Assembly (NCBI RefSeq): GCF_041146795.1
Contig: NC_135180.1
Coordinates: forward strand, 39,438,294-39,502,293
DNA: 64,000 nt
DNA from: Maylandia zebra
Taxonomy: Eukaryota > Chordata > Actinopteri > Cichliformes > Cichlidae
Direction: 5' to 3'
Both the position numbers and the translations under genes were made by a program. Position 1 is the stretch's first letter. Every line of letters begins with the position of its first letter. Below the pieces are notes generated by a model, which had not been told where the DNA came from, searched no databases, and was given only the letters and a program-made list of their open reading frames with translations. This document shows positions 15,444 through 47,610 of this stretch, one piece after another.

Positions 15444-18400
15444 ATGAGGCGGAGAGGGGATCAGAGAGAGGATGGCACAACACTAATCACCATGGAAACC
15501 AGCCCAGAGAACAACTATGGCACCATGGTAACAGGATGTGGTCAATCCGGTTGTTAAGTGATGACGTGACGAATCCTACTTCCGGGTCTAAAGTAGTCTG
15601 CGTTTAATATGGCTTTTGTGTTGTTAACATGTTTAATGTTTTGTATTTTCTTCTATTTAATCTCAAAAAGCTCCTAAAACAGTCAGTGATCACTGTTGAC
15701 CTCCCTCGGCTTTTATTACCACTAATCATTTATTTAAGCTCAGTTTTTAAAACCTTAGGATGTAACTACAGCCCAGCCCATGCAGCAGTATATGAATGAC
15801 TAACCTCGTATTGTGGATGGATTATCTCAGTTGTTCTCCTGGCTGAAGTTTGGTCCTTTTACAGCATCCTGCCATGCGATTACATTTGTTCCTGACCACC
15901 GAGAACACTCACGTTAACTTTTATCGAGTGGAAAAAAAGTTAGCTTGTTTATATTATGCTAACATAGCTGTGTCGCTAGCGGTCACGTAGCACATCATTA
16001 TATACCAGCTAGCCCAACTTCAGTAACCCTACAAACGTCACTGCTGTTTAGTTTTCTGTCTTCATTTATGCTGGAAGTGATAACAGAGCTGTACGTTTGA
16101 ATTTGTTTCCAAAACCCCGCAGTCAGGACATGCTATATTGTATTTAGATAGAAGCTAGCGAGCTAACTCCCTGCTAACTTCTAACTCCGTTAAATGTCAT
16201 AAATTCCGTTTTCATGGATGCCTGGATGTTAAACTCAGTTGTTACACCTGGTAGAGCAGAACGCTGATCATTTTATTAAAGATGAAAGACTTTAGACAGT
16301 TTTTCAACTCTCAGTAATGCCATAGTGATCGTTTGATATATGGACCTGCAGCGGAGTTTAGGCCCAGACACGGCTAGTGACGTCAGACTGAACGATCGGA
16401 TTACTCTCTGATTGGATTGAAAAGTAAAATCCCTGTAGCTAAAAGATGCAAGTTGAAGTTTCACCCAAACGTGCAGGAAGTCGTCTGATTTCACTGTCGA
16501 CTCTCAGAGCTGATGGCGGTAAAATGCGATTGTCCTCTCGTATGGTCAGCCTGGCTGCAGCATCACTGGTTACACCAGCAGGAGGCGACACACTTCGTTA
16601 GGGTTGTACTGGTCTCTGGTTTGGGCTCGTATTCTTGTAAAACATGGAGGCCATCAACGATCATCCAGGATGGTCTCATCAGTTTATCACAAACCGTTAG
16701 CCACGCCTCACTCCTCACAGCTGGTTTCAAAACTTGCAGATGGCAACACTGAGCATGCTCAGTTCACCTAAATCAGTGACATTACAGTATCTATGGCCAC
16801 CTTTTATACTGTCCAGGGCTCATGCTGGACTGTATTCACAGTTCTCACTGCAAAAAAGGTGTTTAAAGCACAAACTTCAATACAACTGGATGGTAACTTT
16901 AGACTCCGCCCCCTTGTGATAGCTACTGCACGCAGCTCTAAACTGTGCTGGGCCTCAAACTAACAGAAGCTCACAGTTAGTGTGAAGACGGTTCCGCATG
17001 TCTGAGTGAAAGCAGGTGAAACCCGGAAGCTTCACCACAGCTTCGCTCTCTCTGCTGCTTTTTAATTAAACTGGGCTGCGGCAGGAAACAGGAAGTGCAT
17101 GATGAGGAGAGACTGAGCGGCTCCACTCGGTTCAGCACTGAGTGATCAAACGGTTGATGTTTGTTCCGCTCTTGCTCTTGTGTGTCTGTCGTCGTCCTCA
17201 TTAGCGACAATGGGGACGTGAAACAGCAGGAAGAGTGGCCCAAAGTGTTTAGGAGCCAATAAAAAACACGAAGCTTCCCGCTTCTGGACCAGTAGCAGCC
17301 CAGAGCCACGCAAACACGCCAGCGTAGCCTTTGGGAAGTGGCTACAGGTTTCACGAACTTCTCGAGAATCCTCGGAGCTGTTCATAGAAAGAAATTAGCT
17401 CAGTGACCATGAAACGTTTACCTCCATATCTCATTGTTACACGTATCATTAAACAAGATGAATACCGCAGTTACATAGAAATCATAGACACACATTAGCC
17501 TCCCCGCTACGTTTGACAGCCATGTGCTGACAGCTGAGGTGTTTGTCTTCACATCTGGGCTGCTGCTGTGAGTGTCGAGCTGTGATCAGCATTTTTGTTT
17601 TGGCTCTTGGGACTTTATAATACAGCCCACGGCTAAGAGTGCTGCTATTTTAGGATTAAGTGGGTTTTCCAGATGCGTTACCTGATATCATGATTGAATT
17701 AGCATTACTTGCTGGTGGGTACATTAGAATAAGGAGGTAATAGTTCATGATTTTACCAGGAGGAAGGAATAATTCTGTAATTAACTTTAAGTACTGAGTA
17801 CTTTCTGGGTATTTTAGCAGAAAAGCAAACAAAATGTTGTCATCTTACATTGTAAATACACTGTACTTTCAGGGGTGTGGGCCATGTTATGTAGTATTTT
17901 ATTACACATATAACATAAAAATATGTGAAAAGAGCTGTTGTCCTTTTCCTCGTGAGGAGATAAAACAAAGAGCAACAAACGCAGGATCATGTGATCTTTA
18001 CAAACACTTCAACCAGAATTTTCAGAAGTACAGAAAACATCAATCAATATATGTATCAATATATGTATATATTCATGTATGTGCAAATCAACAGGCTATT
18101 AGCCATGGGTGTTTTTTTTTTATACGAGATGAAGAACATTGATTCTGTCAGTTTTTTCTCCTTCATGATGATTCAGTTTTCTGTTGGTTTGAAAGTTCTG
18201 TTTTGGATTCATCAGGAAAAGATTTCAGTCCACGCTGCTGCTCGTGCCATCCATCATACATCCATCCTATATATCCATCCATCATCCATCCATCCATCAT
18301 CCATCCATCCTATATATCCATCCATCATCCATCCATCCATCATCCATCCATCCTATATATCCATCCATCATCCATCCATCCATCATCCATCCATCCTATA

Positions 18401-21400
18401 TATCCATCCATCATCCATCCATCCTATATATCCATCCATCATCCATCCATCCATCATCCATCCATCCTATATATCCATCCATCCATCCATCCATCATACA
18501 TCCATCCTATATATCCATCCATCCATCATCCATCCATCCATCATCCATCCATCCATCCATCATCCATCCATCCTATATATCCATCCATCCATCCATCCAT
18601 CCATCCATCCATCCTATATATCCATCCATCCATCATCCATCCATCCATCATCCATCCATCCTATATATCCATCCATCCATCCATCCATCCATCATACATC
18701 CATCCTATATATCCATCCATCCATCATCCATCCATCCATCATCCATCCATCCTATATATCCATCCATCCATCTATCCATCCTATATATCCATCCATCCAT
18801 CCATCCATCCATCATCCATCCATCCTATATATCCATCCATCCATCCATCCATCCATCCATCATCCATCCATCCTATATATCCATCCATCCATCCATCATC
18901 CATCCATCCATCCATCCATCCATCCATCCATCCATCCATCCATCCATCTTATATATCCATCCATCCATCCATCCATCATACATCCATCCTATATATCCAT
19001 CCATCCATCCATCATACATCCATCCTATATATCCATCCATCCATCATACATCCATCCTATATATCCATCCATCCATCCATCCATCCATCATACATCCATC
19101 CTATATATCCATCCATCATCCATCCATCCATCCTATATATCCATCCATCCATCATCCATCCATCCTATATATCATCCATCATCCATCCATCCTATATATC
19201 CATCCATCCATCCATCCTATATATCCATCTATCCATCCATCCATCCATCCATCCTATATATCCATCCATCCATCCACCCATCCTATATATCCATCCATCC
19301 ATCCATCCTATATATCCATCCATCCTATATATCCATCCATCCATCCATCCTATATATCCATCCATCATACATCCATCCTATATATGCATCCATCCATCAT
19401 CTATCCAATATATGCATCCATCCATCCATCCATCCATCCAATATATGCATCCATCCTATATATCCATCCATCCATCCTATATATGCATCCATCCATCCAT
19501 CCATCCATCCATCCATCCATCCATCCATCCATCCATCCATCCTATATATGCATCCATCCATCATCTATCCAATATATGCATCCATCCATCCATCCATCCA
19601 TCCATCCATCCATCCTATATATCCATCCACCCATCCATCCATCATCCATCCAATATATGCATCCATCCATCATCTATCCAATATATGCATCCATCCATCC
19701 ATCATCCATCCACTCATCCATCCATCCATCCTATATATCCATCCATCCATCCTATATATGCATCCATCCATCCATCCATCCTATATATCCATCCATCATC
19801 CATCCATCCATCCATCCATCCATCCATCCATCCATCCATCCATCCATCCTATATATCCATCCATCCATCCATCATACATCCATCCTATATATCCATCCAT
19901 CCATCATACATCCATCCTATATATCCATCCATCCATCATCCATCCATCCATCCATCCATCCATCCATCCATCCATCATACATCCATCCTATATATCCATC
20001 CATCCATCATCCATCCATCCATCCATCCTATATATCCATCCATCCATCCATCCATCCATCCATCCATCCATCCATCCTATATATCCATCCATCCATCCTA
20101 TATATCCATCCATCCATCATCCATCCATCCTATATATCCATCCATCATCCATCCATCCTGTATATCCATCCATCCTATATATCCATCCATCCATCCATCC
20201 ATCCATCCTATATATCCATCCATCATACATCCATCCTATATATGCATCCATCCATCATCTATCCAATATATGCATCCATCCATCCATCCAATATATGCAT
20301 CCATCCTATATATCCATCCATCCATCCTATATATGCATCCATCCATCCATCCATCCATCCATCCATCCTATATATGCATCCATCCATCATCTATCCAATA
20401 TATGCATCCATCCATCCATCCATCCTATATATGCATCCATCCATCCATCCATCCATCCTATATATCCATCCACCCATCCATCCATCATCCATCCAATATA
20501 TGCATCCATCCATCCATCATCCATCCACTCATCCATCCATCCATCCTATATATCCATCCATCCATCCTATATATGCATCCATCCATCCATCCATCCAATA
20601 TATGCATCCATCCATCCATCCATCCATCCATCCATCCATCCATCCATCCATCCATCCATCCATCCATCAATCAATAACACATTAGCCGTGTTAGCCCTGC
20701 TGCTTGTGCCCTGCTCTTTATTTACTCTTGTGAGCAGGAGAGTGAGAACAGTCCTTATCACATTTTATTATTTAACTTGGACAGCAGAGCAGCCGTGGTG
20801 CATAATAAAAATGTAAAAAGGCTAGATTAAACCACTACAGTAGTAAATTAATTTAGAGTATAATTATTTTCTTGTATTTTCACCTCCTTATTCTGAGGTG
20901 TTTCTACTGGTACATGTTTGTAGGTAAATGCCATTTGATTTGATTTGACTGTAAAGCAGGTAAAACGTGATTCCAGTGGAATTCCACGTGTGGTCGTGGG
21001 CCATCTGAGTGCTGTGGCATTTTTCCACAGTTATGCAAACAGTGGGTTTGTGGTGACAAGTTTACACACGTGAGTCGGCTAATGTAATGAGCACACAAGT
21101 AAACTCCGTATGAATAATTCATAAAGTCGGCACGTCGTCTCTGTCCCACAGAAATGAATGGATCGGATGCCTCATAGATAAAATGGTCTTTGATTGATTG
21201 GATTGTACAAACAGTGTATCCTCTCCTTCCTTGCCTGCAGAGACAAACATGGCAGAGCATTGTTCCAAAACAGCGTTCTCTCTTTCAGAACCCTTCTAAA
21301 GGTGCTTGTCTCCACTCCAGGGCCTGCCAGGCTCCATGAATAACTCTGATCATCAGCAGGATTCAGTCCTTTAAGCCTTCACTGGAAGTCTCACAGTTTC

Positions 21401-24400
21401 CTTAGAATTACAAACTCTTAGTTTCAGGAAGCTTTTTGAAAACAGACCCTGCTCTTTGATTGTTTTCCTCTAAATTCAGTCTGACAGGTTTTATTATTTC
21501 CCAGAATGCAGTTCAGCCTGAGGATGGGAATGTTTTCAGTGATGGATCGACTCGAGTCGGTGAGTAGAAAACAAAATCATACCGTTCCAAACGCAGCGTG
21601 TTTAGCAGACGAATTAAACCTGTGATCCTCTCGGACAGACTTTGTGCTGGTGTGGGAGGAGCCAAGGAGCATGCAGGAGGAGAGCATGGGTGTTAGCCCC
21701 GCCCACCGCCGGTGGAGGGAGGAGTTTCTGAAAAGACTGAGACACTCTGGACTTCTGCAGGAACAGGTAAGCTAAACAAACACAGGTGAGTCTGCAGGTA
21801 AGGCAAACATGGAGGAAGTGAAACTAAACTGTCACATGACCCACATGCCACCTTCACTTTGGATATCAGGAAATAAACAACAGACATTATATAGACAATA
21901 ACAGACATAATTGTATCATTGGCTTACTGATGATGTGCTTCTATGTGTTTCTGTTTGATGGATGGAAGCTAACCAGCAGCTAAATGCACCTTTCAATCAA
22001 TCAATCAATACTTTATTTATATTATAGCTCATTGAAAAGACCAGAGGTGCTCCAAAGTGTTTCTCAATAGTAAAATATGAAATCAAATTTATTACATATG
22101 GGTACAGATGCATAGAGTACAAATACATTTCCAGAAAATAAACAAAGCACTAATTAACCCGTGAGTACTAGTTATGATGTTGAAAGGAGGTGAAGGACGC
22201 TGAGCTCTTTTCTTCTTCTCTGCAGAAGGAGGTCCTCCAGACAAAGAAGAGGATCTGTTTTGTCCTCCTCAGCGCTCCGTGGAGCGTGCTCTGTTACTAC
22301 GCTGAGGAGATCAGCCTCAGAGTCCCACTGCAGGTAAAGCCCACGTCCTCTGCCGCCGTCCTCACGCTCAGCAGCCATCTCACGGCATGTCCTCTGTCCT
22401 CCTGCAGGTGGTCACCGCCCCCATCGTTAACTGGTCCGAACAGATCCTGTCCAAGCTGTCTCTTCCCAACCTTATGTCCCAGGACGTCCCCAACCCCCCG
22501 CCCGACTACTACACCTGCCAGTTCAGGACCAACAAGCTGGAGAGGTACAAACACTCAGGACCTGAGTCCCGTGTCACCCTCATCCTCCTCCTTCACTCTC
22601 CCTGTTTCCTGCCTGCAGGTTTTTGGGCAGCGACAACAAAGACACGTTCTTCAAGACGACCCAGAGACACCAGGTGGTGAGTGAAGAAAACAAAACGGTC
22701 TCGAGGAACTCGTGGCCGTGCCGTGCACTTCACTGTGGTGCATGTAGAAATGAAAACTGAATGTTTATGGTGTATTTTAGGATAGTTTGACTATTTCAGA
22801 GGACAAATCCAGAACAGAGAAACAGACAAATAAATGTTAATATTTCAAAAAATCTTTAAACAAAAATACACAAACCAACATCTAAGAGTTTTTAACCCAA
22901 AGAACCTGAAAGTGTGAATTTAAGATTTCTTGTGCTGCTTCATTAATGACACAAAACCCGAGCAGACGGGAACTGTGTGTTTGGTCGTGTTGGGAAAGTT
23001 TCCAGTGCAGCTTCAACAAACTGAGCTGAGAGCGAGCTGCTCTGATTGGCTCAAAGGCAGAAATACCAGCGAAGCAGATCCAGGATGTATCGGTCAACAG
23101 ACGGATGCTGGCAGCGGCAACGCCTCCTCCTCAAACAAACTCGACAAACACACACACACAAATGTCCGTGTGTGTAGCACTTTATTTTATGAGTCTGTAC
23201 TTCCTTAACAATCCACTGAAGTTTCCTGAAAACAACACAAACATGTTTCTGTGGTTCTGAGTGGAGATGGCTGTGGTGTTCTGCAGTGTCCTGGAGGCTC
23301 TGTTTCTATTAATGCTAAAAGTTTCACGGAAACAAAGTTTCAGCCCTAGACATGGTTATGCTAGCTTAGCTGAGTCCCTTGAAACCCTCGTGTCCCTCTA
23401 GCTGTACGAGATCTTAGCCAGGACTCCATACGGTTCGGTGAAGAACGGGGAGGTGGGCGTCGACCGTCTGCTGAACGAGCAGGTCTTCACCGCCGCCTAC
23501 CCGCTGCACGAGGTGAGATGTGCACCACGAGCCTGGTCTGAAGCTGCTGTGATTCCCAGACTGAAGCCCAGGCTGATGTTTGATACCATGTTTGCAGGGA
23601 GATTATCAGCTGCCGACCCCCCCGGTCAGTCCCCAGAGTTTAAGCCTGAGGCAGATCCTGTATGCTTACTGGGCCCAGTGGTCCTGCTGGAGACGCTACC
23701 AACCTCTGGACCACATCAGGGAGTACTTTGGGGAGAAGATCGCACTTTATTTTGCCTGGTTAGGTAAATATGAGGAAAATACCTCCGATGTTATGCCGTT
23801 ATTTGGTGACAAGCGTCTCACCGTGTCTGCATGCAGGCTTCTACACCGGCTGGCTGCTGCCGGCGTCTGTCGTCGGGACGGTGATCTTCCTGATCGGGTT
23901 TTGGCTCGTGGCCACCGACGTTCCAGCGTGAGTACAAACTCATCGTCAGCGTTCATTTTAAAGCAGTTTGTGAGGACATGCTCACTCGTCATGGTTGATG
24001 CACCTGTGGTGATCTGTGTTTGAATTTGTAGGAACGAGTTGTGTGGTAGCGGAAACAGCTTCATCATGTGTCCGCTCTGTAATATCTGCTCCTACTGGAA
24101 CTACTCCAGCATCTGCGTCACCTACAAGGTACCTGCCACCACCACACCTCTCACATTTATTTAAATGTTTCCGTTCTCTGGGAAAACACAGGGCGAGGCA
24201 AAGCAGCCATGTTCCTTATTCCAGCATATATTCATGCATCACTCATCTCGCTGATCTCTGTGAGATGGATCGTGGACGTTTCTTCAGAGGTTTCTGTTTC
24301 CTGATACGTCGCCTGGCAGATTAATAGTTGGGCAGTTTAAAAGTGGACAGCAGTAGACAACTCTGTCCTCTGACCTCATCAGGTCCTCTGAGCTAAATGT

Positions 24401-32660: not shown

Positions 32661-32755
32661 AACGTGTCACGGCTGGGGCAGCAGTCGCGTGGCGGAATGA
32701 GTGAGACCCAGGATGCAGCACTTACTGAGATGCAAGGGTGGTTTATTATACATCA
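32661..32755. mobile_element. LTR-like fragment
   Basis: GTGTCACGGCTGGGGCAGCAG to GCAAGGGTGGTTTATTATAC resembles the end of a fish LTR. It is cut by the LINE tail that starts at about 32,756. Too short to classify. Confidence 0.35.
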
Positions 32756-34015
32756 AATTCAAATTCAAATTTTATTTGTCACGTACACAGTCATACACAG
32801 TACGATATGTAGTGAAATGCTTGGACAACTGCTCGTGACCTAAAGAAAACAAAAAAGGAAAAGGCTATGAATAAGATAGGAAATAAATATGAAAAATTAA
32901 AAAGGGTAAATTTAACTAGGAAGGAATAAAATATAAATTAAGGTTAAAAATGAAATAACTGTACAACACAAATTAGAATGAAGGGTAAATTTAACTGGGA
33001 AGAATAAGATAAAATATATAAATTAAAGTTGAAAATAAAATAACTGTACAACAAAATACACAATATAGAACTATATAAGAATGTATGAAGAAATCGAAAT
33101 ATAAATAAATATATACACAATAACAGCAGCTGTACAAGTATTAACTGGAAATGAAGAATATAGTGACCAGTGTTGTGCAAAAACAATGTCCAGAAAGTCC
33201 AGTGTGTGTGTAAGAACCATATGTGTGGGTCAGTACTGTGTGGTGGTGTGATTGAGAGACCGTATCGCCTGCGGGAAGAAGCTCCTCCTCAGTCTCTCTG
33301 TGTTGGTCTTCAGGGAGTGGAATCGCTTTCCTGACCTCAGCAGAGAGAACAGTCTGTTGTTGGGATGGCTGAGGTCCTTCACCATCTTCCTGGCCTTGGT
33401 CCAGCACCGCCTGCTGTACATTGAGTGCAGGTCAGGGAGCTCGGAGCGGATGGTGCGCTCAGCTGACCGCACAACCCTCTGTAGAGCTCGTCTGTCCTGC
33501 ATGGTGCTGTTCCCGAACCAGGTTAAGATGTTTCCCGCCAGGATGCTCTCTATGGTGCACGAGTAAAAGTTCCTGAGCACCTTGGAGGGCAGTTGGAAGT
33601 CTCTCAAGCGTCTGAGGTGGTAGAGACGCTGTCGGGCCTTTTTCACCACGGTGTTGATGTGACAGGACCATGACAGGTCCTGCGTGATGTGAACTCCGAG
33701 GTATTTGAAGCTGTCCACTCTCTCCACTGGGCACTCGTTGATGACGGGGGTCTGGTAGTTCCTCTCCTGCTTAGTGCTGAAGTCCACTATCAGCTCCTTT
33801 GTCTTACTGACGTTTAGAAGGAGGTTGTTCCTCTGGCACCAGTTTTCCAGATTCCTAATCTCCTTCAGGTAGGCCGTCTCGTTGTTATCAGAGATCAGGC
33901 CCACCACGACGGTGTCGTCAGCAAACTTGATGATGGTGGTGGAGCTGGTAGTGGCCACACAGTCATATGTGTACAAAGAGTACAGCAGGGGGCTCAGAAC
34001 ACACCCCTGGGGGGG
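32756..34015 (-). mobile_element. Rex1-like LINE, 5'-truncated copy
   Basis: The 3' UTR (32,756-33,229) begins on the plus strand with CAAATTTTATTTGTCACGTA. It is followed by the RT C-terminal part, about 262 residues to 34,015 (KFADDTVVVGLI, KYLGVHITQDLSWSCHI, RLYHLRRLRDFQLP). It is collinear with and nearly identical to the corresponding parts of the larger copy at 37,014-47,610, without the LTR-element insertion, so it shows the uninterrupted LINE sequence. At 34,015 the homology stops at a G run. Confidence 0.9.
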
Positions 34016-34089
34016 TGTGACACAACACAAAGTGGGGAGGGGAGGGACAAAGGGAGGACAGCAGGGAGAGCTCACAGTGGATTCACAGA

Positions 34090-35052: not shown

Positions 35053-36525
35053 CCATCTCAGAAGCTAAATGTTGGCCTAAAGAAGCTAAATACAGAATAT
35101 ATAATATGGATAAATAGGATTGCACATTTGAGTGAGTCTATTGCACAGTGATTATTGCAGTCGAATATAAGAAAATAAATACTGCGAATATTGCACAGTG
35201 AAGAGGCACTACAGCTTAGTTGTTCCCCCCTCCTTTGTCCTCCTGTCTCCCCTCCCTCTCCCCTCCAGAGAGGAGTTAAACAGTCTGATGGCGTGTGGGA
35301 CAAAGGAGTTTTTAAGTCTGTTAGTTCTTGTCTTTGGGAGAAGCAACCTGTCACTGAACAGACTCTTCTGATTGTTAATGGCCGTGTGCAGAGGATGCCC
35401 AGCATTGTTCATAATGTCCAGCAGCTTCTTTAATGTCCTTTTCTCTGCCACTGTCACCAGAGTGTCCAGCTTCATGCCGACCACAGAGCTAGCCCTCCTG
35501 ATCAGTTTCTCCAGCCTGGATGAGTCCCTCTTTGCTGTGCTGCTCCCCCAGCACACCACAGCATAGAAAAGTACTCCAGCAACCACCGACTGGTAAAACA
35601 TCCTCAGGAGCTTCCTGCAGATGTTAAAAGACCTCAGCCTCCTGAGGAAGTACAGTCGGCTTTGGGCTTTTTTATACAGGTGCTCTGTGTTGCATGACCA
35701 GTCCAGTTTATTGTCCACCCACAGCCCGAGGTACTTGTACTTGTTGACCACCTCCACCTCCTCCCCCTCTATCTGAACCGGCAGTGGACCTGCTCTAGAC
35801 CTCCCGAAGTCCACAACCAGTTCCTTAGTCTTTGAGGTGTTGAGTTGCAGGTGGTTTGTGTGACTCCATGCGACAAAGTTCCTCACCAGACTTCTGTACT
35901 CCTCTTCCTGATCATCCCAGATACACCCCATGATGGCTGTGTCATCTGCAAACTTCTGAATGTGGCATAATTCAGAGTTGTAGCAGAAGTCAGAGGTGTA
36001 CAGGGTGAAGAGAAGAGGGGACAGCACAGTTCCCTGTGGTGCTCCTGTGCTGCTGACCACTGTGTCAGACGTGATGTCCTTCAGCCTGACGTACTGTGGT
36101 CTGTCGGTGAGGTAGTCGGAGATCCAAGCCACCAGGCAGGGGTCCACCTCCATCCTGTTCAGTTTTTCCTGAAGCATACAGGGCCGGATGGTATTAAAGG
36201 CACTGGAAAAGTCAAGAAACAGGATCCTGACCGTGCCTTTTCCCTCATCCAGGTGTGAGTGGGCTCTGTGTAGGAGGTACAGGATGGCATCCTCCACTCC
36301 GACACCCGCCTTGTAGGCGAACTGTAGTGGGTCCTGGGCATGTTGTACCTGTGGTCGGAGGAGGTTGAGGAAGAGCCGCTCTAGAGTCTTCATAAGATGT
36401 GACGTCAGTGCCACCGGTCGGAAGTCATTCAGCTCATTGGGCTCATACTTAAATATTAAAGTATTTGACTTTGCACGTGTGTGGAACAGAGAAAATACAT
36501 TTAAAGATGTATAGTGTACAATCAT
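35053..36525 (-). mobile_element. Rex1-type LINE, second subfamily, 5'-truncated with long RT ORF
   Basis: An open minus-strand frame of about 430 codons (36,450-35,209) carries the RT: LNDFRPVALTSHLMK, DPLQFAYKAG, ILFLDFSSAFNTI, GAPQGTVLSPLLFTLY, KFADDTAIMGC and KYKYLGLWVDNKLDWS. FADD is the catalytic box. The endonuclease half is missing, so the copy is 5'-truncated, but the RT has no stops, indicating a recent insertion. The sequence is clearly different from the 847-residue LINE nearby. The first residues before LNDFRP are foreign. Confidence 0.88.
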
Positions 36526-37013: not shown

Positions 37014-37467
37014 AAATCAAAATCAAATTCAAATTTTATTTGTCACGTACACAGTCATACACAGTACGATATGTAGTGAAATGCTTGGACAACTGCTCGT
37101 GACCTAAAGAGAACAAAAAAGGAAAAGGCTATGAATAAGATAGGAAATAAATATGAAAAATTAAAAAGGGTAAATTTAACTAGGAAGGAATAAAATATAA
37201 ATTAAGGTTAAAAATGAAATAACTGTACAACACAAATTAGAATGAAGGGTAAATTTAACTGGGAAGAATAAGATAAAATATATAAATTAAAGTTGAAAAT
37301 AAAATAACTGTACAACAAAATACACAATATAGAACTATATAAGAATGTATGAAGAAATATAAATAAATATATACACAATAACAGCAGCTGTACAAGTATT
37401 AACTGGAAATGAAGAATATAGTGACCAGTGTTGTGCAAAAACAAAGTCCAGAAAGTCCAGTGTGTGT
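37014..37467 (-). mobile_element. Rex1-like LINE 3' UTR, split from its body by the LTR element
   Basis: Nearly identical to 32,756-33,200, ending in GTCCAGTGTGTGT where the LTR element begins. The continuation of the LINE resumes at 44,768 with GTGTGTAAGAAC, exactly as in the uninterrupted copy at 33,195-33,215. Confidence 0.93.
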
Positions 37468-38139
37468 TGTTACGTTCTGGTCCCGGCAAGAAAATAAACG
37501 TAACAAATAGTTTGCCCCACTCACTTCCCACCCACGCACAAACCCCAACAACGACACCTTTTTTAAGTATTTAAGCAGCCATTTATTTTCATCAGCAGTG
37601 AGCAATGCCAAAACAATAAACAAAACTCCCTATAAAACAATCCCTAGTCTTCCCTACACCAAAATAAAAAGAAGCCAAAACAAAAGACAAGTCACTTACC
37701 TAACTATCTAACGAAAAACAGGAGAAAACTTGTTCAACAAAAGAAAACGGCTTCTCACGCCTACTAGGCTGCGACAGTGAAAGTTATACAGCAAAGGAAC
37801 AAAAAAGTGACCGCCACTGGTTAACTTATTTACAATTATTTACATGGCAAGGCTAGAGGTACACGTGAATACTCCAGCCTGCACTACAATGACACAACAC
37901 ACAACCCCGTGACCGAGTCAACGGGGTTCCAAACAGCACTCCCAGGTGACTGTCATCCGGACGTTAAGTACTGGAGGTGGTCCATCAATTATCCAGTCGG
38001 AAGGTGTGTAGAGACTCCACCCAGATACCTAGCAGCCACGCCCAGGTGTCCACCTCCTAGGAGAGAAAAAAGGGAAAATACCGCCACCATCCTCCGGTGG
38101 GAGGCACAACACCAACAAACACATCACTGGGTCATAACA
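37468..38139 (-). repeat. LTR 1 (3' LTR of the array), 672 bp
   Basis: TGTTACGTTCTGGTCCCGG to GGGTCATAACA on the plus strand. Read on the minus strand it begins TGTTATGACCC directly after a polypurine tract, which marks it as the 3' LTR. Confidence 0.95.
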
Positions 38140-38162
38140 GTTTCCCCCACCCAAAAAAAATC
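38140..38162 (-). promoter_or_regulatory. polypurine tract of the left unit
   Basis: On the minus strand a T8 run is followed by GGGTGGGGGAAAC directly against the LTR start TGTTATG. This is the usual plus-strand primer site of LTR retroelements. The same sequence recurs at 41,454-41,476. Confidence 0.75.
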
Positions 38163-38400
38163 AAACATCCAACCCCACACAAAGATGTTTGATTTACGAC
38201 CTAGAGAGGGCATCAGCCATAACATTCTCTAAGCTCTTATATATCGGATCTCAATGTTGAAATCCTGTAGGAGTAAGGACCAACGCATGAGGCGCTGGTT
38301 GCTGTTTTAGAAATGTTCTAGAAAAGAAACAGACTGGGTGGTCAATGCCATTTTCATCCTCCTGCACGAGCACTGCACCCGCCCCCAAAACACTGGCGTC
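38163..38400 (-). pseudogene. pol RNase H remnant, left unit
   Basis: The minus strand between the protease-LSM14 ORF and the polypurine tract reads, in broken frames, VDASVLGAGAVLVQED, DHPVCFFSRTF, NQRLMRWSLLLQDFNIEI and ENVMADALSR. These are the landmarks of a Gypsy RNase H domain, with a deletion between the SRTF and NQRLMRW parts and a stop. RT, integrase and most of RNase H are absent. It is repeated at 41,477-41,714. Confidence 0.85.
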
Positions 38401-39586
38401 CACCTCTGAATCCTTGGCCCCTCAGGAACCGCCCAGGGACACCAAAAGTCTCCAGATTGCGCTTTCGCTCCTCTGCCCACGTCAGTCTGAGCCCATTATC
38501 AGATGAGATGTTGTCAAAGAAAAACTTTGCTTTGTCATAGTAGCACTTTGGACCAAAATGATCCTCCCCTGAACTCAGCTGCAACCCCTCCTTTTCCCTT
38601 CCCTCAGAATTCCCATCTTTTAGATTCAGCCCCTCCTGTAACTTCTTCTCAAGCGCCTCCTTAATGAATTGCGCGTTGGAGGAATCAAAATCAAAGTCTG
38701 TGTCAAATTTAAGGGTGGGAGATGGAGCATTAGCCACCATCAGCTGGCCTCTTCTGCGGTCCCTATGCCGTCGAGGTCCTTGTCTTTTTCTAGCAGGTGG
38801 CCTGGTTTCAGCAGTTTGCTGCTGACTGGCCCGAAAAGTGAATCTACTTGGGTCTGATTGCATGGTGGCTTCAGCGACCCTTGTGGTTTGAATATTTGTT
38901 CTTCTCGTCCCCTTGGGCTGCCTCCTATTCTGCTGCTGCTGTTGCTGGGATCCACTCGCACCTCTCCTCTGCCTAAATGTCTTTACACTGACGGTTTGAA
39001 CAGCCTTTGATGTGGCACGATCGAAACCACTGTTATCTGTAAGTGGTATATTGACTACTTCTGGCGACGGAAAAACTGTGCCGCCAGCTAGATCGTTTCC
39101 CAAGATGATGTCAATACCTGCAACCGGTAACTGGGGTCGCACCCCAAGCTTAACCTCACCAGACAAAAACTGAGACGAAAGCTGCACCAAGTGTAAAGGA
39201 ACCCGTATTACACACATCCTAACTCCCCAGGCTAACACATCCGCCCCACAACAGGATTGAGCTGAAAACGGTAAGACCCCCTCACGAATGAGCGACTGTT
39301 TCGCACCAGTGTCTCGCAAAATACTGACAGGAGTCCGCCGATCTTCTCCTATCAAGGAAACAAAGCCGTTTGACACAAACGGCTTAAACTCCTTATCTAC
39401 TTTATCATTTTCGGGTGCCATCACCTCCCCCCAAGTAGGAGAGTTTGTCTGTAGAAGGTTTATTGGGGAAGGAGATGTACCCTCCCTGGTCATTTCTTTT
39501 CTCTTCAGAGCAGGGCAAACCGCAATAAGGTGTCCCTGCTCATGGCAAAAAAAACACGCGGTTCTCAATGGATGAGGGGATGGCAC
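38354..39586 (-). CDS. gag zinc knuckle/protease fused in frame to LSM14 C-terminal half, left unit
   Basis: 410 codons. Residues 11-24 form a CX2CX4HX4C knuckle (C11, C14, H19, C24). Residues 87-170 look like a retropepsin with D92-T-G-A at the active site and ILGNDLAGG at 161-169. From about residue 194 the sequence changes to LSM14: AVQT at 195-198, a basic Gln/Arg-rich stretch, a DFDF box (TDFDFDSSNAQF, 296-307), an FFD box (CYYDKAKFFFDNISSD, 348-363), a TFG box (NLETFGVPGRFLRG, 377-390) and the start of an RGG segment. LSM14 proteins are translational repressors in P-bodies; the FFD/TFG region binds DDX6 and partners, and the N-terminal Sm domain, absent here, binds 4E-T. The LSM14A C-terminus is the closest that I can recall. 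After residue 397 the frame enters the RNase H scrap out of frame and stops. Whether the fusion is translated is unknown. Confidence 0.9.
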   Translation of the reverse strand: MPSPHPLRTACFFCHEQGHLIAVCPALKRKEMTREGTSPSPINLLQTNSPTWGEVMAPENDKVDKEFKPFVSNGFVSLIGEDRRTPVSILRDTGAKQSLIREGVLPFSAQSCCGADVLAWGVRMCVIRVPLHLVQLSSQFLSGEVKLGVRPQLPVAGIDIILGNDLAGGTVFPSPEVVNIPLTDNSGFDRATSKAVQTVSVKTFRQRRGASGSQQQQQQNRRQPKGTRRTNIQTTRVAEATMQSDPSRFTFRASQQQTAETRPPARKRQGPRRHRDRRRGQLMVANAPSPTLKFDTDFDFDSSNAQFIKEALEKKLQEGLNLKDGNSEGREKEGLQLSSGEDHFGPKCYYDKAKFFFDNISSDNGLRLTWAEERKRNLETFGVPGRFLRGQGFRGGRQCFGGGCSARAGG

Positions 39587-40682
39587 GGCGGGTGCCCCTT
39601 GGAGACCATCTGGGCGGGCTACTGGAAGACGGAAAACCGTGAGCAGGAGCCGAAAACACCACTTTATGTGTCAACACAAACTCATCAGCCCGTATAGCAG
39701 CAGCGGCGAGAGTCGTAACCTTCTGTTCGTTTAAGTAGGTTACCACAGTGTCTGGTAGTTGATTCTTAAACTCTTCTAACGTCACCAACTCACGCAGGTC
39801 TTCCAAGGTTTTTATTTCTGTAGCATGACACCACTTATCAAACAGAGTTTTCTTTTCTCTGGCAAACTCCACATAGGTCTGGTTGGCGGATTTTTTCCCA
39901 TCCCTAAATCTCTGCCTGTAAGCCTCTGGCACAAGCTCGTAAGCGCGCAGGACAGCAGCCTTCACCGTATCATAGTCAAAACTGTCCTCCAGAGAAAGAG
40001 CGGTGCATACCTCTTGAGCTTTCCCCACCAATCTACATTGGAGTAAAAGAGACCACACATCCTTTGGCCAGTGCAGCGCACCTGCGATACGTTCAAACAC
40101 CGTGAAATACGAATCCACCTCAGTTTCCCGAAACGCCGGCACCATTTTGATTTGTTTACTCACATCAAAGCCACCACCTGGCATCGGGGCCGGTGGCTGC
40201 GGAGATGGCGACTGCGGGGATGATGACTCCGGGGAGGGTACCTGCGGGGATGGTGACTGCGGGGCTAACCGAGGTACAGGAGGACTGGCAGACACAGAGG
40301 CTCCCCTCTCTACCTCCAGAGCCCTGATCCTCAAGTGCATAGCGTCCACCTCCAACTGCTGTTTCTTTAGCTCCACCTCCTTAATGCGCAGCGTTACCCG
40401 CAGCTCCTCCACAGAAGGGCTAGGTGGAAAAGGGAGATTTTTCAGTGGGGCAGAAACACCAGCAACAGCCCCCAGCTCAACCCCCCCTGCAGGACCCGGC
40501 TCACCAAACAACCCCCTGTCCGTCAACTGGACACACAGGAGCTCCCTAAGCTCTTTCTTCTTCGCAGTCAACGGCACAGTCACATCAAAGAATTCAGCAA
40601 CAAGCAAGAGGTCAGCCTTTTTACACCTGTCCAACTTCTCCGCAGACGGGCTCAGAGTGAAGTCCTCCAACTTAAACTCCAT
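39540..40682 (-). CDS. Gypsy-type gag, left unit
   Basis: 380 codons from ATG at 40,682, about 100 bp inside the PBS. The frame is open further upstream into the LTR but that part is hydrophobic and unlike gag. The N-terminus (EDFTLSPSAEKLDRCKKADL) resembles the SAP-like start of fish Gypsy gags. Then come a charged coiled-coil-like helix (VEELRVTLRIKEVELKKQQL), a Pro/Ser-Pro-Gln linker, and a SCAN-like capsid region (YVEFAREKKTLFDKWC, about residues 270-340). The ORF ends just before the zinc knuckle, which lies in the neighbouring frame of the next ORF; the two overlap by 47 bp. I describe this as a frame break common to both units. Confidence 0.88.
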   Translation of the reverse strand: MEFKLEDFTLSPSAEKLDRCKKADLLLVAEFFDVTVPLTAKKKELRELLCVQLTDRGLFGEPGPAGGVELGAVAGVSAPLKNLPFPPSPSVEELRVTLRIKEVELKKQQLEVDAMHLRIRALEVERGASVSASPPVPRLAPQSPSPQVPSPESSSPQSPSPQPPAPMPGGGFDVSKQIKMVPAFRETEVDSYFTVFERIAGALHWPKDVWSLLLQCRLVGKAQEVCTALSLEDSFDYDTVKAAVLRAYELVPEAYRQRFRDGKKSANQTYVEFAREKKTLFDKWCHATEIKTLEDLRELVTLEEFKNQLPDTVVTYLNEQKVTTLAAAAIRADEFVLTHKVVFSAPAHGFPSSSSPPRWSPRGTRRAIPSSIENRVFFLP

Positions 40683-40765
40683 CCTAACACACACACACAC
40701 ACACACCCCCCACACAAGAAAAAACCGCCAACCAAGAAAACAAGCCACAAAAAGAACCACCAAAG

Positions 40766-40778
40766 GGACGAGCCCCCA
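40766..40778 (-). promoter_or_regulatory. primer-binding site, left unit (tRNA-Pro type)
   Basis: On the minus strand TGGGGGCTCGTCC begins 3 nt after the LTR end (CGTAACA, then TAT). This is the start of the tRNA-Pro-complementary PBS known from gammaretroviruses; only the first 13 positions match. Confidence 0.75.
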
Positions 40779-40781
40779 ATA

Positions 40782-41453
40782 TGTTACGTTCTGGTCCCGG
40801 CAAGAAAATAAACGTAACAAATAGTTTGCCCCACTCACTTCCCACCCACGCACAAACCCCAACAACGACACCTTTTTTAAGTATTTAAGCAGCCATTTAT
40901 TTTCATCAGCAGTGAGCAATGCCAAAACAATAAACAAAACTCCCTATAAAACAATCCCTAGTCTTCCCTACACCAAAATAAAAAGAAGCCAAAACAAAAG
41001 ACAAGTCACTTACCTAACTATCTAACGAAAAACAGGAGAAAACTTGTTCAACAAAAGAAAACGGCTTCTCACGCCTACTAGGCTGCGACAGTGAAAGTTA
41101 TACAGCAAAGGAACAAAAAAGTGACCGCCACTGGTTAACTTATTTACAATTATTTACATGGCAAGGCTAGAGGTACACGTGAATACTCCAGCCTGCACTA
41201 CAATGACACAACACACAACCCCGTGACCGAGTCAACGGGGTTCCAAACAGCACTCCCAGGTGACTGTCATCCGGACGTTAAGTACTGGAGGTGGTCCATC
41301 AATTATCCAGTCGGAAGGTGTGTAGAGACTCCACCCAGATACCTAGCAGCCACGCCCAGGTGTCCACCTCCTAGGAGAGAAAAAAGGGAAAATACCGCCA
41401 CCATCCTCCGGTGGGAGGCACAACACCAACAAACACATCACTGGGTCATAACA
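40782..41453 (-). repeat. LTR 2 (shared middle LTR), 672 bp
   Basis: Same sequence as LTR 1 and LTR 3. It serves both as 5' LTR of the left unit and as 3' LTR of the right unit. Confidence 0.95.
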
Positions 41454-41667
41454 GTTTCCCCCACCCAAAAAAAATCAAACATCCAACCCCACACAAAGAT
41501 GTTTGATTTACGACCTAGAGAGGGCATCAGCCATAACATTCTCTAAGCTCTTATATATCGGATCTCAATGTTGAAATCCTGTAGGAGTAAGGACCAACGC
41601 ATGAGGCGCTGGTTGCTGTTTTAGAAATGTTCTAGAAAAGAAACAGACTGGGTGGTCAATGCCATTT

Positions 41668-42900
41668 TCATCCTCCTGCACGAGCACTGCACCCGCCCCC
41701 AAAACACTGGCGTCCACCTCTGAATCCTTGGCCCCTCAGGAACCGCCCAGGGACACCAAAAGTCTCCAGATTGCGCTTTCGCTCCTCTGCCCACGTCAGT
41801 CTGAGCCCATTATCAGATGAGATGTTGTCAAAGAAAAACTTTGCTTTGTCATAGTAGCACTTTGGACCAAAATGATCCTCCCCTGAACTCAGCTGCAACC
41901 CCTCCTTTTCCCTTCCCTCAGAATTCCCATCTTTTAGATTCAGCCCCTCCTGTAACTTCTTCTCAAGCGCCTCCTTAATGAATTGCGCGTTGGAGGAATC
42001 AAAATCAAAGTCTGTGTCAAATTTAAGGGTGGGAGATGGAGCATTAGCCACCATCAGCTGGCCTCTTCTGCGGTCCCTATGCCGTCGAGGTCCTTGTCTT
42101 TTTCTAGCAGGTGGCCTGGTTTCAGCAGTTTGCTGCTGACTGGCCCGAAAAGTGAATCTACTTGGGTCTGATTGCATGGTGGCTTCAGCGACCCTTGTGG
42201 TTTGAATATTTGTTCTTCTCGTCCCCTTGGGCTGCCTCCTATTCTGCTGCTGCTGTTGCTGGGATCCACTCGCACCTCTCCTCTGCCTAAATGTCTTTAC
42301 ACTGACGGTTTGAACAGCCTTTGATGTGGCACGATCGAAACCACTGTTATCTGTAAGTGGTATATTGACTACTTCTGGCGACGGAAAAACTGTGCCGCCA
42401 GCTAGATCGTTTCCCAAGATGATGTCAATACCTGCAACCGGTAACTGGGGTCGCACCCCAAGCTTAACCTCACCAGACAAAAACTGAGACGAAAGCTGCA
42501 CCAAGTGTAAAGGAACCCGTATTACACACATCCTAACTCCCCAGGCTAACACATCCGCCCCACAACAGGATTGAGCTGAAAACGGTAAGACCCCCTCACG
42601 AATGAGCGACTGTTTCGCACCAGTGTCTCGCAAAATACTGACAGGAGTCCGCCGATCTTCTCCTATCAAGGAAACAAAGCCGTTTGACACAAACGGCTTA
42701 AACTCCTTATCTACTTTATCATTTTCGGGTGCCATCACCTCCCCCCAAGTAGGAGAGTTTGTCTGTAGAAGGTTTATTGGGGAAGGAGATGTACCCTCCC
42801 TGGTCATTTCTTTTCTCTTCAGAGCAGGGCAAACCGCAATAAGGTGTCCCTGCTCATGGCAAAAAAAACACGCGGTTCTCAATGGATGAGGGGATGGCAC
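41668..42900 (-). CDS. protease-LSM14 fusion ORF, right unit
   Basis: Encodes the same 410 residues as the left unit with no amino-acid change: zinc knuckle, DTGA protease, LSM14 DFDF/FFD/TFG boxes. It lies 3,314 bp from its twin. Confidence 0.9.
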   Translation of the reverse strand: MPSPHPLRTACFFCHEQGHLIAVCPALKRKEMTREGTSPSPINLLQTNSPTWGEVMAPENDKVDKEFKPFVSNGFVSLIGEDRRTPVSILRDTGAKQSLIREGVLPFSAQSCCGADVLAWGVRMCVIRVPLHLVQLSSQFLSGEVKLGVRPQLPVAGIDIILGNDLAGGTVFPSPEVVNIPLTDNSGFDRATSKAVQTVSVKTFRQRRGASGSQQQQQQNRRQPKGTRRTNIQTTRVAEATMQSDPSRFTFRASQQQTAETRPPARKRQGPRRHRDRRRGQLMVANAPSPTLKFDTDFDFDSSNAQFIKEALEKKLQEGLNLKDGNSEGREKEGLQLSSGEDHFGPKCYYDKAKFFFDNISSDNGLRLTWAEERKRNLETFGVPGRFLRGQGFRGGRQCFGGGCSARAGG

Positions 42901-43996
42901 GGCGGGTGCCCCTTGGAGACCATCTGGGCGGGCTACTGGAAGACGGAAAACCGTGAGCAGGAGCCGAAAACACCACTTTATGTGTCAACACAAACTCATC
43001 AGCCCGTATAGCAGCAGCGGCGAGAGTCGTAACCTTCTGTTCGTTTAAGTAGGTTACCACAGTGTCTGGTAGTTGATTCTTAAACTCTTCTAACGTCACC
43101 AACTCACGCAGGTCTTCCAAGGTTTTTATTTCTGTAGCATGACACCACTTATCAAACAGAGTTTTCTTTTCTCTGGCAAACTCCACATAGGTCTGGTTGG
43201 CGGATTTTTTCCCATCCCTAAATCTCTGCCTGTAAGCCTCTGGCACAAGCTCGTAAGCGCGCAGGACAGCAGCCTTCACCGTATCATAGTCAAAACTGTC
43301 CTCCAGAGAAAGAGCGGTGCATACCTCTTGAGCTTTCCCCACCAATCTACATTGGAGTAAAAGAGACCACACATCCTTTGGCCAGTGCAGCGCACCTGCG
43401 ATACGTTCAAACACCGTGAAATACGAATCCACCTCAGTTTCCCGAAACGCCGGCACCATTTTGATTTGTTTACTCACATCAAAGCCACCACCTGGCATCG
43501 GGGCCGGTGGCTGCGGAGATGGCGACTGCGGGGATGATGACTCCGGGGAGGGTACCTGCGGGGATGGTGACTGCGGGGCTAACCGAGGTACAGGAGGACT
43601 GGCAGACACAGAGGCTCCCCTCTCTACCTCCAGAGCCCTGATCCTCAAGTGCATAGCGTCCACCTCCAACTGCTGTTTCTTTAGCTCCACCTCCTTAATG
43701 CGCAGCGTTACCCGCAGCTCCTCCACAGAAGGGCTAGGTGGAAAAGGGAGATTTTTCAGTGGGGCAGAAACACCAGCAACAGCCCCCAGCTCAACCCCCC
43801 CTGCAGGACCCGGCTCACCAAACAACCCCCTGTCCGTCAACTGGACACACAGGAGCTCCCTAAGCTCTTTCTTCTTCGCAGTCAACGGCACAGTCACATC
43901 AAAGAATTCAGCAACAAGCAAGAGGTCAGCCTTTTTACACCTGTCCAACTTCTCCGCAGACGGGCTCAGAGTGAAGTCCTCCAACTTAAACTCCAT
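42854..43996 (-). CDS. Gypsy-type gag, right unit
   Basis: Identical in translation to the left-unit gag (380 codons from the ATG at 43,996). The same frame break occurs before the zinc knuckle. Confidence 0.88.
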   Translation of the reverse strand: MEFKLEDFTLSPSAEKLDRCKKADLLLVAEFFDVTVPLTAKKKELRELLCVQLTDRGLFGEPGPAGGVELGAVAGVSAPLKNLPFPPSPSVEELRVTLRIKEVELKKQQLEVDAMHLRIRALEVERGASVSASPPVPRLAPQSPSPQVPSPESSSPQSPSPQPPAPMPGGGFDVSKQIKMVPAFRETEVDSYFTVFERIAGALHWPKDVWSLLLQCRLVGKAQEVCTALSLEDSFDYDTVKAAVLRAYELVPEAYRQRFRDGKKSANQTYVEFAREKKTLFDKWCHATEIKTLEDLRELVTLEEFKNQLPDTVVTYLNEQKVTTLAAAAIRADEFVLTHKVVFSAPAHGFPSSSSPPRWSPRGTRRAIPSSIENRVFFLP

Positions 43997-44079
43997 CCTA
44001 ACACACACACACACACACACCCCCCACACAAGAAAAAACCGCCAACCAAGAAAACAAGCCACAAAAAGAACCACCAAAG

Positions 44080-44092
44080 GGACGAGCCCCCA
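44080..44092 (-). promoter_or_regulatory. primer-binding site, right unit (tRNA-Pro type)
   Basis: TGGGGGCTCGTCC on the minus strand, 3 nt inside the outer 5' LTR. Same as in the left unit. Confidence 0.75.
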
Positions 44093-44095
44093 ATA

Positions 44096-44767
44096 TGTTA
44101 CGTTCTGGTCCCGGCAAGAAAATAAACGTAACAAATAGTTTGCCCCACTCACTTCCCACCCACGCACAAACCCCAACAACGACACCTTTTTTAAGTATTT
44201 AAGCAGCCATTTATTTTCATCAGCAGTGAGCAATGCCAAAACAATAAACAAAACTCCCTATAAAACAATCCCTAGTCTTCCCTACACCAAAATAAAAAGA
44301 AGCCAAAACAAAAGACAAGTCACTTACCTAACTATCTAACGAAAAACAGGAGAAAACTTGTTCAACAAAAGAAAACGGCTTCTCACGCCTACTAGGCTGC
44401 GACAGTGAAAGTTATACAGCAAAGGAACAAAAAAGTGACCGCCACTGGTTAACTTATTTACAATTATTTACATGGCAAGGCTAGAGGTACACGTGAATAC
44501 TCCAGCCTGCACTACAATGACACAACACACAACCCCGTGACCGAGTCAACGGGGTTCCAAACAGCACTCCCAGGTGACTGTCATCCGGACGTTAAGTACT
44601 GGAGGTGGTCCATCAATTATCCAGTCGGAAGGTGTGTAGAGACTCCACCCAGATACCTAGCAGCCACGCCCAGGTGTCCACCTCCTAGGAGAGAAAAAAG
44701 GGAAAATACCGCCACCATCCTCCGGTGGGAGGCACAACACCAACAAACACATCACTGGGTCATAACA
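44096..44767 (-). repeat. LTR 3 (5' LTR of the array), 672 bp
   Basis: Ends CATAACA at 44,767, then LINE sequence resumes. On the minus strand this is the outer 5' LTR and would hold the promoter. Confidence 0.95.
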
Positions 44768-47610
44768 GTGTGTAAGAACTGTATGTGTGGGTCAGTACTG
44801 TGTGGTGGTGTGATTGAGAGACCGTATCGCCTGCAGGAAGAAGCTCCTCCTCAGTCTCTCTGTGTTGGTCTTCAGGGAGCGAAATCGCTTTCCTGACCTC
44901 AGCAGAGAGAACAGTCTGTTGTTGGGATGGCTGAGGTCCTTCACGATCTTCCTGGCCTTGGTCCAGCACCGCCTGCTGTAGATTGAGTGCAGGTCAGGGA
45001 GCTCGGAGCGGATGGTGCGCTCAGCTGACCGCACAACCCTCTGTAGAGCTCGTCTGTCCTGCATGGTGCTGTTCCCGAACCAGGTTAAGATGTTTCCCGT
45101 CAGGATGCTCTCTATGGTGCACGAGTAAAAGTTCCTGAGCACCTTGGAGGGCAGTTGGAAGTCTCTCAAGCGTCTGAGGTGGTAGAGACGCTGTCGGGCC
45201 TTTTTCACCACGGTGTTGATGTGACAGGACCATGACAGGTCCTGCGTGATGTGAACTCCGAGGTATTTGAAGCTGTCCACTCTCTCCACTGGGCACTCGT
45301 TGATGACGGGGGTCTGGTAGTTCCTCTCCTGCTTAGTGCTGAAGTCCACTATCAGCTCCTTTGTCTTACTGACGTTTAGAAGGAGGTTGTTCCTCTGGCA
45401 CCAGTTCTCCAGATTCCTAATCTCCTTCAGGTAGGCCGTCTCGTTGTTATCAGAGATCAGGCCCACCACGACGGTGTCGTCAGCAAACTTGATGATGGTG
45501 GTGGAGCTGGTAGTGGCCACACAGTCATATGTGTACAAAGAGTACAGCAGGGGGCTCAGAACACACCCCTGGGGGGCTCCAGTGCTGAGAGTGGTGGAGG
45601 CTGAGACATGTCCGCCCATCCTTACTGCCTGTGGTCTGCCAGTTAGGAAGTTGGAGATCCACTGACACATAGATGAGCTGAGTCCCAGATGCTCCAGCTT
45701 GGTGGTGAGTGTGGAGGGAATTATGGTGTTAAATGCAGAGCTGTAGTCTATGAAGAGCATTTTAACATAATTCCCCCTTCTAGTGTCCAAGTGAGTGAGT
45801 GATGTGTGGAGGAGATGAGAGATGGCATCGTCTGTGGAACGATTTGGACGGTAAGCGAACTGTAGTGGGTCCAGTGTGTCTGGTAGTGAAGAAATGATGA
45901 AGTCTCTGACCAGGCGTTCAAAGCACTTCATCACTACTGAGGTGAGGGCTACAGGGCGATAGTCATTGAGAGAAGCAGGGTGGGGTTTCTTCGGGACAGG
46001 AACAATGATGGACTCTTTGAAGCATGTGGGGATCACCGACTGAGATAAAGAGATGTTGAATATCTCAGTGAACACAGGAGCTAGCTGGTATGCGCAGTCT
46101 CTTAGGATACGACCTGGGATGCCGTCTGGTCCTGCTGCTTTCCTGGTGTTCACTCTCTTGAAGGCTCTCCTTACTTCATGCTCGGAGATGACGAGCACGT
46201 TTCCGGTGCTGGCAGTATCTTCCTGTCTGCAGCCGTTAGCGCCGCTAACACTAGCATTGTTGGAGACCTTAGCTGGAGCCTCGAAGCGAGCATAGAAAGT
46301 GTTCAGCTCGTCTGCCAGAGTCACGGCCGCGTTCGTCATACCGGTTGTTGGTGCTTTATAGTCCGTTATTGTCCTTAGTCCCCGCCACAGGCTCCTAGAG
46401 TCCCTCTGTTGGAGTTGTGACTCTAGTTTCCTCCCGTAGCGCTGCTTCGCCTCTTTCACCGCCCTCCGCACGTTATATGACGCGGCTTTGTACGGGTCCA
46501 TGTCCCCCGTCATGAGTCCCGTGTTGTAGGCAGCGGTGCGGGATCTCAGAGCGTCGCGGATGGTTTTATCCACCCACGGCTTCTGGTTGGGAAACGTTGT
46601 GATAGTCTTTGTCTCCACGGTATCATCCGCTAGTTTCCCGATGAATCCCACAACCGCTTCCGTAAACACGTTGACGTCATCGTCGGAGCTGTTTCTGAAC
46701 ATGCCCCAGTCTGCGTCATCGAGTGCGTCCTGTAACGCGGCCACCGATTGATCCGTCCAGCGCGCGACCTTCCTCTGAACCGGAACTTCCTGTTTCAGCC
46801 TTTGTTTGTATTTTGGCATGAGGAAGATGGCGGCGTGATCAGATTTGCCAAACGGGGGGCGGGATTGTGCCTTGTAGCCGTCCTTGACCGTAGTGTAGCA
46901 GTGGTCCAGTGTCCTTTCACCTCTGCTGGGGCAGGTGATGTGTTGATAAAAGTTCGGCGCTGCGCGTTTGAGGTTGGCGCTATTAAAGTCCCCCGTCACA
47001 ATAAGCGCAGCGTCCCGGTGTTGTGTCTGGTGCTGTGTGAGTGCCTCATGCAGCTCGCATAAGGCGGTGACCGTGTCCGCTTGTGGTGGAATATAAACGG
47101 CACTTACAATGACCGATGTAAATTCCCGAGGTAGATAAAAAGGACGACACATGATGGACAGTAGTTCCAGATTTGGTGTGCAGGAGCGTGTGAGAGGAAC
47201 AACGTTCGCACTGTTGCACCAGTTGTTGTTCACCATTAAACACACGCCGCCTCCCCTTGACTTCCCCGAGTCCCGTGTCCTGTCCATGCGGTGAACCGAG
47301 AAGAACTCGGCCGGCTGGATGGCGTGGTCCGGCACCGCTGGGTTCAGCCATGTCTCGGTGAAGCAGAGGAGATTGCAGTCCCGAATGTCTCTCTGGAACT
47401 TTATCCTGGCCCTGAGGTCGTCAAGCTTGTTCTCCAGTGACTGGACGTTGGCGAGCAGGATGCTAGGCAGAGGTGTGCGGTGTGCACGAGCTCTCAGCCT
47501 GTTCCTGACGCCGGCTCGCTTCCCTCTAGGCCGCCGCCGCTTCCCTTTGTTCTCCCTCGAGATCTCACTCGGCCAGCTCGGATCCGGAGTTAAAAACTTC
47601 GAATTGTGAG
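44768..47610 (-). mobile_element. Rex1-like LINE with intact endonuclease-RT ORF
   Basis: An uninterrupted frame of at least 847 codons (47,335-44,792) continues upstream without stop to about 47,605, with no ATG there; the extension contains NVQSLENKLDDLRARI and CNLLCFTETWL, the start of an APE-type endonuclease. In the 847-residue numbering, GDFN is at 115-118, LDHCY at 143-147, SDHAAI at 165-170, and the RT box FADD at 617-620, with RPVALTS and GAPQGCVLSP before it. The protein would nick DNA and reverse-transcribe the LINE. The absence of stops suggests a young copy. The 5' end is probably truncated. Its 3' UTR is displaced to 37,014-37,467 by the LTR element. Confidence 0.92.

Follow-up and report, generated by a model that had tools for sequence, protein, structure and literature searches.

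In a 64,000-nucleotide stretch of Maylandia zebra DNA (contig NC_135180.1; hereafter the window), we found what is very probably a young, non-autonomous, Gmr1-like Ty3/Gypsy LTR retrotransposon that carries a captured C-terminal part of an LSM14 mRNA, most likely that of LSM14B. The element occupies window positions 37468-44767 as a tandem with the order LTR-int-LTR-int-LTR, and a scripted comparison found its units to be identical, including the two interiors of 2642 bp each. The borders and terminal signals of the array are as follows.

37464..37467, no strand: target-site duplication GTGT, left copy, seen when the joined flanks are compared with LINE copy A
37468..38139, minus strand: outer 3' LTR, with AATAAA at LTR position 553
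38140..38152, minus strand: polypurine tract GGGTGGGGGAAAC, adjoining the 3' LTR; second copy at +3314
40766..40778, minus strand: PBS-like site TGGGGGCTCGTCC, 3 nt downstream of the LTR; second copy at +3314
40782..41453, minus strand: shared middle LTR, 672 bp, identical to the other two LTRs
44096..44767, minus strand: outer 5' LTR (TG...CA), 672 bp, identical to the other two LTRs
44768..44771, no strand: target-site duplication GTGT, right copy, seen in the same comparison

As for the class of element, the array has the features that define an LTR retrotransposon, namely TG...CA LTRs, a target-site duplication and a polypurine tract before the 3' LTR. The PBS-like site TGGGGGCTCGTCC is putatively of the tRNA-Pro type; scans of the whole window found no tRNA genes and no matches to Rfam families. 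GTGT is a 4-bp target-site duplication surrounding the whole array. Within the window, LINE copy A aligns with the joined flanks over 653 columns, of which 634 are identical; GTGT stands out as four extra nucleotides at the insertion point, and there is an unrelated 6-nt gap elsewhere. This LINE copy, which lies 4 kb from the array in the same window, provides the empty site. The window holds LINE copies at 32752-34075, 35209-36525 and 44792-47335, one of which is the target of the element and another the empty site; the two longer LINE frames, when scanned, showed RVT_1 followed by a domain named ALKBH8_N. The outer LTRs show zero differences in 672 bp, so that their 95% upper age limit is 0.9 My at an assumed rate of 2.5e-9 per site and year and 0.2 My at an assumed rate of 1e-8.

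Tandems with a shared LTR are described as arising by recombination or abnormal template switching (PMC1950507), and the present one probably arose by unequal exchange between LTRs or from an abnormal reverse transcript, while a false duplication during assembly may also be its origin. The two units are identical, and assemblers can falsely duplicate such sequences, so that the tandem, the fusion described below, or both, might be artefacts. We regard this as highly improbable. The fusion is found in both units and its frame is unbroken across the join between protease and LSM14, while a single 4-bp duplication surrounds the whole array and has a matching empty site. Together, these observations argue for a real fusion, although a false second unit would be compatible with them.

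The interior of each unit contains the following features, listed in the direction of transcription and with the coordinates of the unit next to the outer 3' LTR.

39540..40682, minus strand: gag ORF, 380 amino acids from the ATG at 40682; identical copy at 42854-43996
39666..39929, minus strand: SCAN domain in gag, Pfam PF02023 with an E value of 7e-13, residues 337-424 of a 465-aa frame
38354..39586, minus strand: ORF2, the CCHC-protease-LSM14 fusion, 410 codons from a GTG; identical copy at 41668-42900
39515..39556, minus strand: CCHC zinc knuckle CFFCHEQGHLIAVC, located by motif, the zf-CCHC_2 profile reaching only an E value of 0.085
39089..39331, minus strand: retropepsin-like protease with DTGA and ILGND motifs, RVP E value of 0.078, below cut-off
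38726..39007, minus strand: possible LSM14 linker starting at AVQT, basic and Q/R-rich, of putative origin
38441..38725, minus strand: captured LSM14, firmly matched (6f9s_B, FDF, shuffles), residues 288-382 with the DFDF, FFD and TFG boxes
38396..38440, minus strand: continuation VPGRFLRGQGFRGGR, LSM14B-like in a comparison made with human LSM14B only, with the first RGG
38299..38406, minus strand: RNase H remnant of pol, beginning EVDASVLGAGAVLVQED, RT_RNaseH PF17917 with an E value of 7.7e-8, in a frame different from that of LSM14
38197..38306, minus strand: probable RNase H end, NQRLMRW... and ENVMADALSRS followed by a stop, in two frames before the polypurine tract, its pattern recognised by reading

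The SCAN domain has been described as originating in a Gag protein, that of a Gmr1-like Gypsy element (PMC3424704), and among frog Gmr elements it was found in over half only (PMC4131045). By its SCAN-type Gag, the element probably belongs to the Gmr1-like Ty3/Gypsy lineage. A preliminary description of this DNA had proposed a Gypsy-like LTR element, and the LTRs, the target-site duplication, the empty site and the SCAN-bearing gag all bear this out. NCBIfam returned one match to gag, far below cut-off, and no families for ORF2; a search of viral contigs gave 34 pattern matches for ORF2 and 10 for gag, none of which was confirmed for either.

ORF2 lies in the +1 frame relative to gag, which it overlaps by 128 nt. 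The 410-codon continuous frame that had been reported is present at exactly 38354-39586, but on the minus strand; frame 1 of the plus strand is full of stops over the same interval. The frame is open from 39670, and its first ATG comes only at residue 32. A script placed the zinc knuckle, with the spacing C-x2-C-x4-H-x4-C, at residues 11-24, and the protease motifs DTGA and ILGND at residues 92-95 and 161-165, respectively; the profile matches of both have the E values given above. The retropepsin profile extends to residue 166. The best match of the protease in the PDB had an E value of 1, and AlphaFold2 single-sequence models reached a mean pLDDT of 36.8 for ORF2 residues 1-399 and 34.3 for the protease.

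Downstream of the protease, ORF2 carries LSM14-type motifs, located by script: AVQT at residues 195-198, DFDF at 297-300, YYDKAKFFFDNIS at 349-361, WAEERKRNLETFG at 370-382 and RGG at 394-396. Compared with the PDB, whole ORF2 matched 6f9s_B (“Cytokinesis, Apoptosis, RNA-associated”) with an E value of 1.8e-4, and residues 285-397 matched the same chain at 1.6e-5, the matched segment (residues 288-382) running from DFDF through the TFG box. This chain is CAR-1, which in worms corresponds to LSm14A and Scd6 (PMC8514580). A local alignment of residues 285-397 with it scored 125, while 2000 shuffles gave a mean of 29.6 (sd 5.4) and a maximum of 71; a chance run of motifs was rejected on this basis. 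The Pfam FDF profile matched whole ORF2 with an E value of 0.0019 and residues 194-397 with 0.0015; trimming to residues 285-397 brought this to 9e-5 at 23.7 bits, under the curated cut-off of 26.1. For whole ORF2, the unrelated families 40S_S4_C (0.0011) and Nucleocapsid-N (0.0014) gave slightly better E values than FDF and were likewise below their cut-offs. We also considered an FDF domain of the EDC3 type, which is set apart by box order only: the FFD and TFG boxes follow here as they do in CAR-1.

The three LSM14 boxes are therefore present and in the order that had been proposed, while the extent of the LSM14 part has to be graded. Capture from about residue 288 to 382 is firm and its continuation to 397 probable. 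A start near residue 194, as had been suggested, is another matter: residues 167-288 score no better than shuffles against an LSM14A linker (their score is reached by 219 of 1000 shuffles), and the assignment of residues 194-288 is thus made by a single motif, AVQT. When residues 291-397 are aligned with parts of the human proteins, 68 of 106 aligned residues are identical with LSM14B and 61 of 106 with LSM14A, and the stretch TFGVPGRFLRG resembles LSM14B. This is a lead by which LSM14B, rather than LSM14A, is the most likely source. In order, the boxes of ORF2 resemble those of LSM14/RAP55/Scd6/CAR-1 proteins, with the possible start of an RGG region. Unlike these proteins, ORF2 has no N-terminal LSm domain (no Pfam match in ORF2 or gag at E values up to 1), and a zinc knuckle and a protease stand in its place. 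The LSM14 part of ORF2 is a fragment, not a member of the LSM14 family.

Next to the end of the LSM14 part lies what remains of pol. The RNase H match begins at EVDAS, at position 38406, at the end of the LSM14 assignment. Since the RNase H sequence is in a different frame, ORF2 runs 13 codons past LSM14 and then stops. Its residues 398-410 are out-of-frame RNase H sequence, which corrects the earlier reading of the ORF2 end. Eleven nucleotides (38396-38406) fit both assignments, giving RGGR in the LSM14 frame and EVDA in that of RNase H; such an overlap may have been left by a template switch at a few nucleotides common to both templates. Further downstream, NQRLMRW and ENVMADALSRS form a pattern that we take to be that of the RNase H end; Pfam returned no families for a 25-aa piece of this region.

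Together, the RNase H remnants, gag and the frame of ORF2 occupy 2486 nt of the 2642-nt interior. This leaves 156 nt, and the interior contains no other sense ORF of at least 80 amino acids. With the interior thus occupied, there is no room for a reverse transcriptase or an integrase, and the element is non-autonomous. In the Gmr1 lineage, the integrase is described as standing in Copia-like order, i.e., upstream of the reverse transcriptase (PMC2774666). The probable RNase H end stands before the polypurine tract, in an element devoid of integrase and reverse transcriptase, which is compatible with the Gmr1 gene order; both enzymes would then have been lost around the capture. The proposal that LSM14 sequence had replaced most of pol is thus upheld by the 6f9s_B and FDF matches, the shuffle test, the RNase H remnant and the occupancy of the interior.

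How might LSM14 sequence have entered pol? LINE-made processed retrocopies are common in vertebrates, and LINEs are at hand in the window, with RVT_1 matches at 35209-36525 and 44792-47335. A LINE might therefore have made a processed LSM14 pseudogene within the pol of the element, an explanation that we nevertheless consider very unlikely. The coding strand has no A-run of at least 6 between 38200 and 39120, and the junction zones searched, 38980-39090 and 38340-38470, of which the 5' zone is a guess, share no exact direct repeat of at least 8; the lack of a poly-A stretch and of a flanking repeat in these zones speaks against a LINE-made pseudogene. Moreover, the LSM14 copy ends within the coding region, and the integrase and reverse transcriptase are missing. 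The LSM14-assigned segment is open over 612 nt, whereas none of 2000 dinucleotide shuffles of it stays open.

We favor capture by template switching, with an mRNA as the likely source. Host LSM14 mRNA would probably have been packaged together with element RNA in a germ cell, where the reverse transcriptase would have left pol RNA for the LSM14 mRNA and later returned, so that the integrase/reverse transcriptase part was lost. The product would have retained the LTRs, the PBS-like site, gag, the protease, the polypurine tract and the RNase H end. Since these are all that is kept, copying would need the enzymes of an intact relative, i.e., mobilization in trans. The element inserted into a LINE copy, making the 4-bp duplication, and the present array formed probably by one of the two routes considered above.

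Capture of this kind is already known. How LTR elements acquire mRNAs has been reviewed, together with cases from insects, zebrafish and chicken (PMC5408686), and crocodilian endogenous retroviruses (ERVs) have captured KIT-ligand and nectin3 mRNAs (PMC4299795). Such host-gene capture by LTR elements is thus documented, and the word “rare” in the preliminary description should be softened. Its other statement, that it knew of no described case with LSM14, agrees with our literature search, which was judged partly by titles and found none. As far as that search shows, an LSM14-carrying member of this known kind is new.

Comparison with these cases brings out what is particular to the cichlid element. 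Metazoan LTR-mediated retroposition was reported by Tan et al. 2016, as described in PMC5408686, for Drosophila, mosquito, zebrafish and chicken. Those cases are, as ours probably is, chimeras of an LTR element and an mRNA, formed there by template switching at microsimilarities (PMC5408686). In our element, the host part is fused in frame to the protease, and the LTRs enclose a complete unit that includes gag. Maize Bs1 has lost its own pol functions. It is likewise an LTR element, one whose hybrid ORF includes host gene pieces (PMC5408686, PMC7264820), yet it belongs to a plant and carries other genes, whereas here a Gmr1-like Gypsy element carries an RNA-granule protein. The crocodilian ERVs share with our element a vertebrate host and a captured host mRNA, but they are retroviruses, in which one capture occurred without domain loss and the other replaced env, the latter being represented by six insertions in one species (PMC4299795). 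Ours, by contrast, is a Gypsy element without integrase or reverse transcriptase. The literature compared here shows no second Gypsy element in which intact LTRs enclose a host part fused in frame to the protease.

An important question is whether the captured part could serve the element. In such a scenario, the fusion would have been kept by selection, acting as a Gag-protease-LSM14 adaptor whose DFDF and TFG boxes bind DDX6 and would thereby bring Gag particles together with element RNA in germ-line P-bodies, much as yeast Ty3 requires DDX6 for its assembly. By analogy, several findings point this way. All three boxes occur in the LSM14 order, and they share the frame of the protease. In LSM14A, FDF and TFG are reported to bind DDX6, and FFD has been linked to EDC4 (PMC9987799), while CAR-1 residues 184-268 (FDF-TFG) bind CGH-1, the worm DDX6, with a KD of 3.03 uM (PMC8514580). 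Transposition of Ty3, a yeast relative among Gypsy elements, is described as decreasing more than 541-fold without Dhh1/DDX6 (PMC4589538), and LSM14B is among the mouse oocyte granule proteins (PMC10761593, Table 1). We nonetheless consider selection for such an adaptor unlikely. A single locus with identical units permits no test of selection, any young capture is expected to have intact boxes, and ORF2 does not share the frame of gag. As for Ty3, Scd6 (the yeast LSM14) has no occurrences in PMC4589538, deletions of edc3 and pat1 had no significant effect, and the paper refers to work in which virus assembly showed no link to P-bodies or DDX6. Since it is the DDX6-binding part of LSM14 that was captured and Ty3 needs DDX6 (Dhh1), whether retroelements gain by carrying their own RNA-granule tether becomes a testable question. 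If true, a parasite would have domesticated part of the machinery with which its host stores RNA, and this part would have been kept by selection and spread in trans.

The window also holds several features outside the array. A rhodopsin-type GPCR fragment is found at 7523-8179 (7tm_1, E value of 1.6e-22), and an anoctamin exon or exons at 23580-24023 (Anoctamin, 9.2e-7; Anoct_dimer, 2.7e-6). Between them, at 18247-20672, lies a 2.4-kb array of about 602 CCAT units with 78% matches, which has long open frames in three plus-strand frames.
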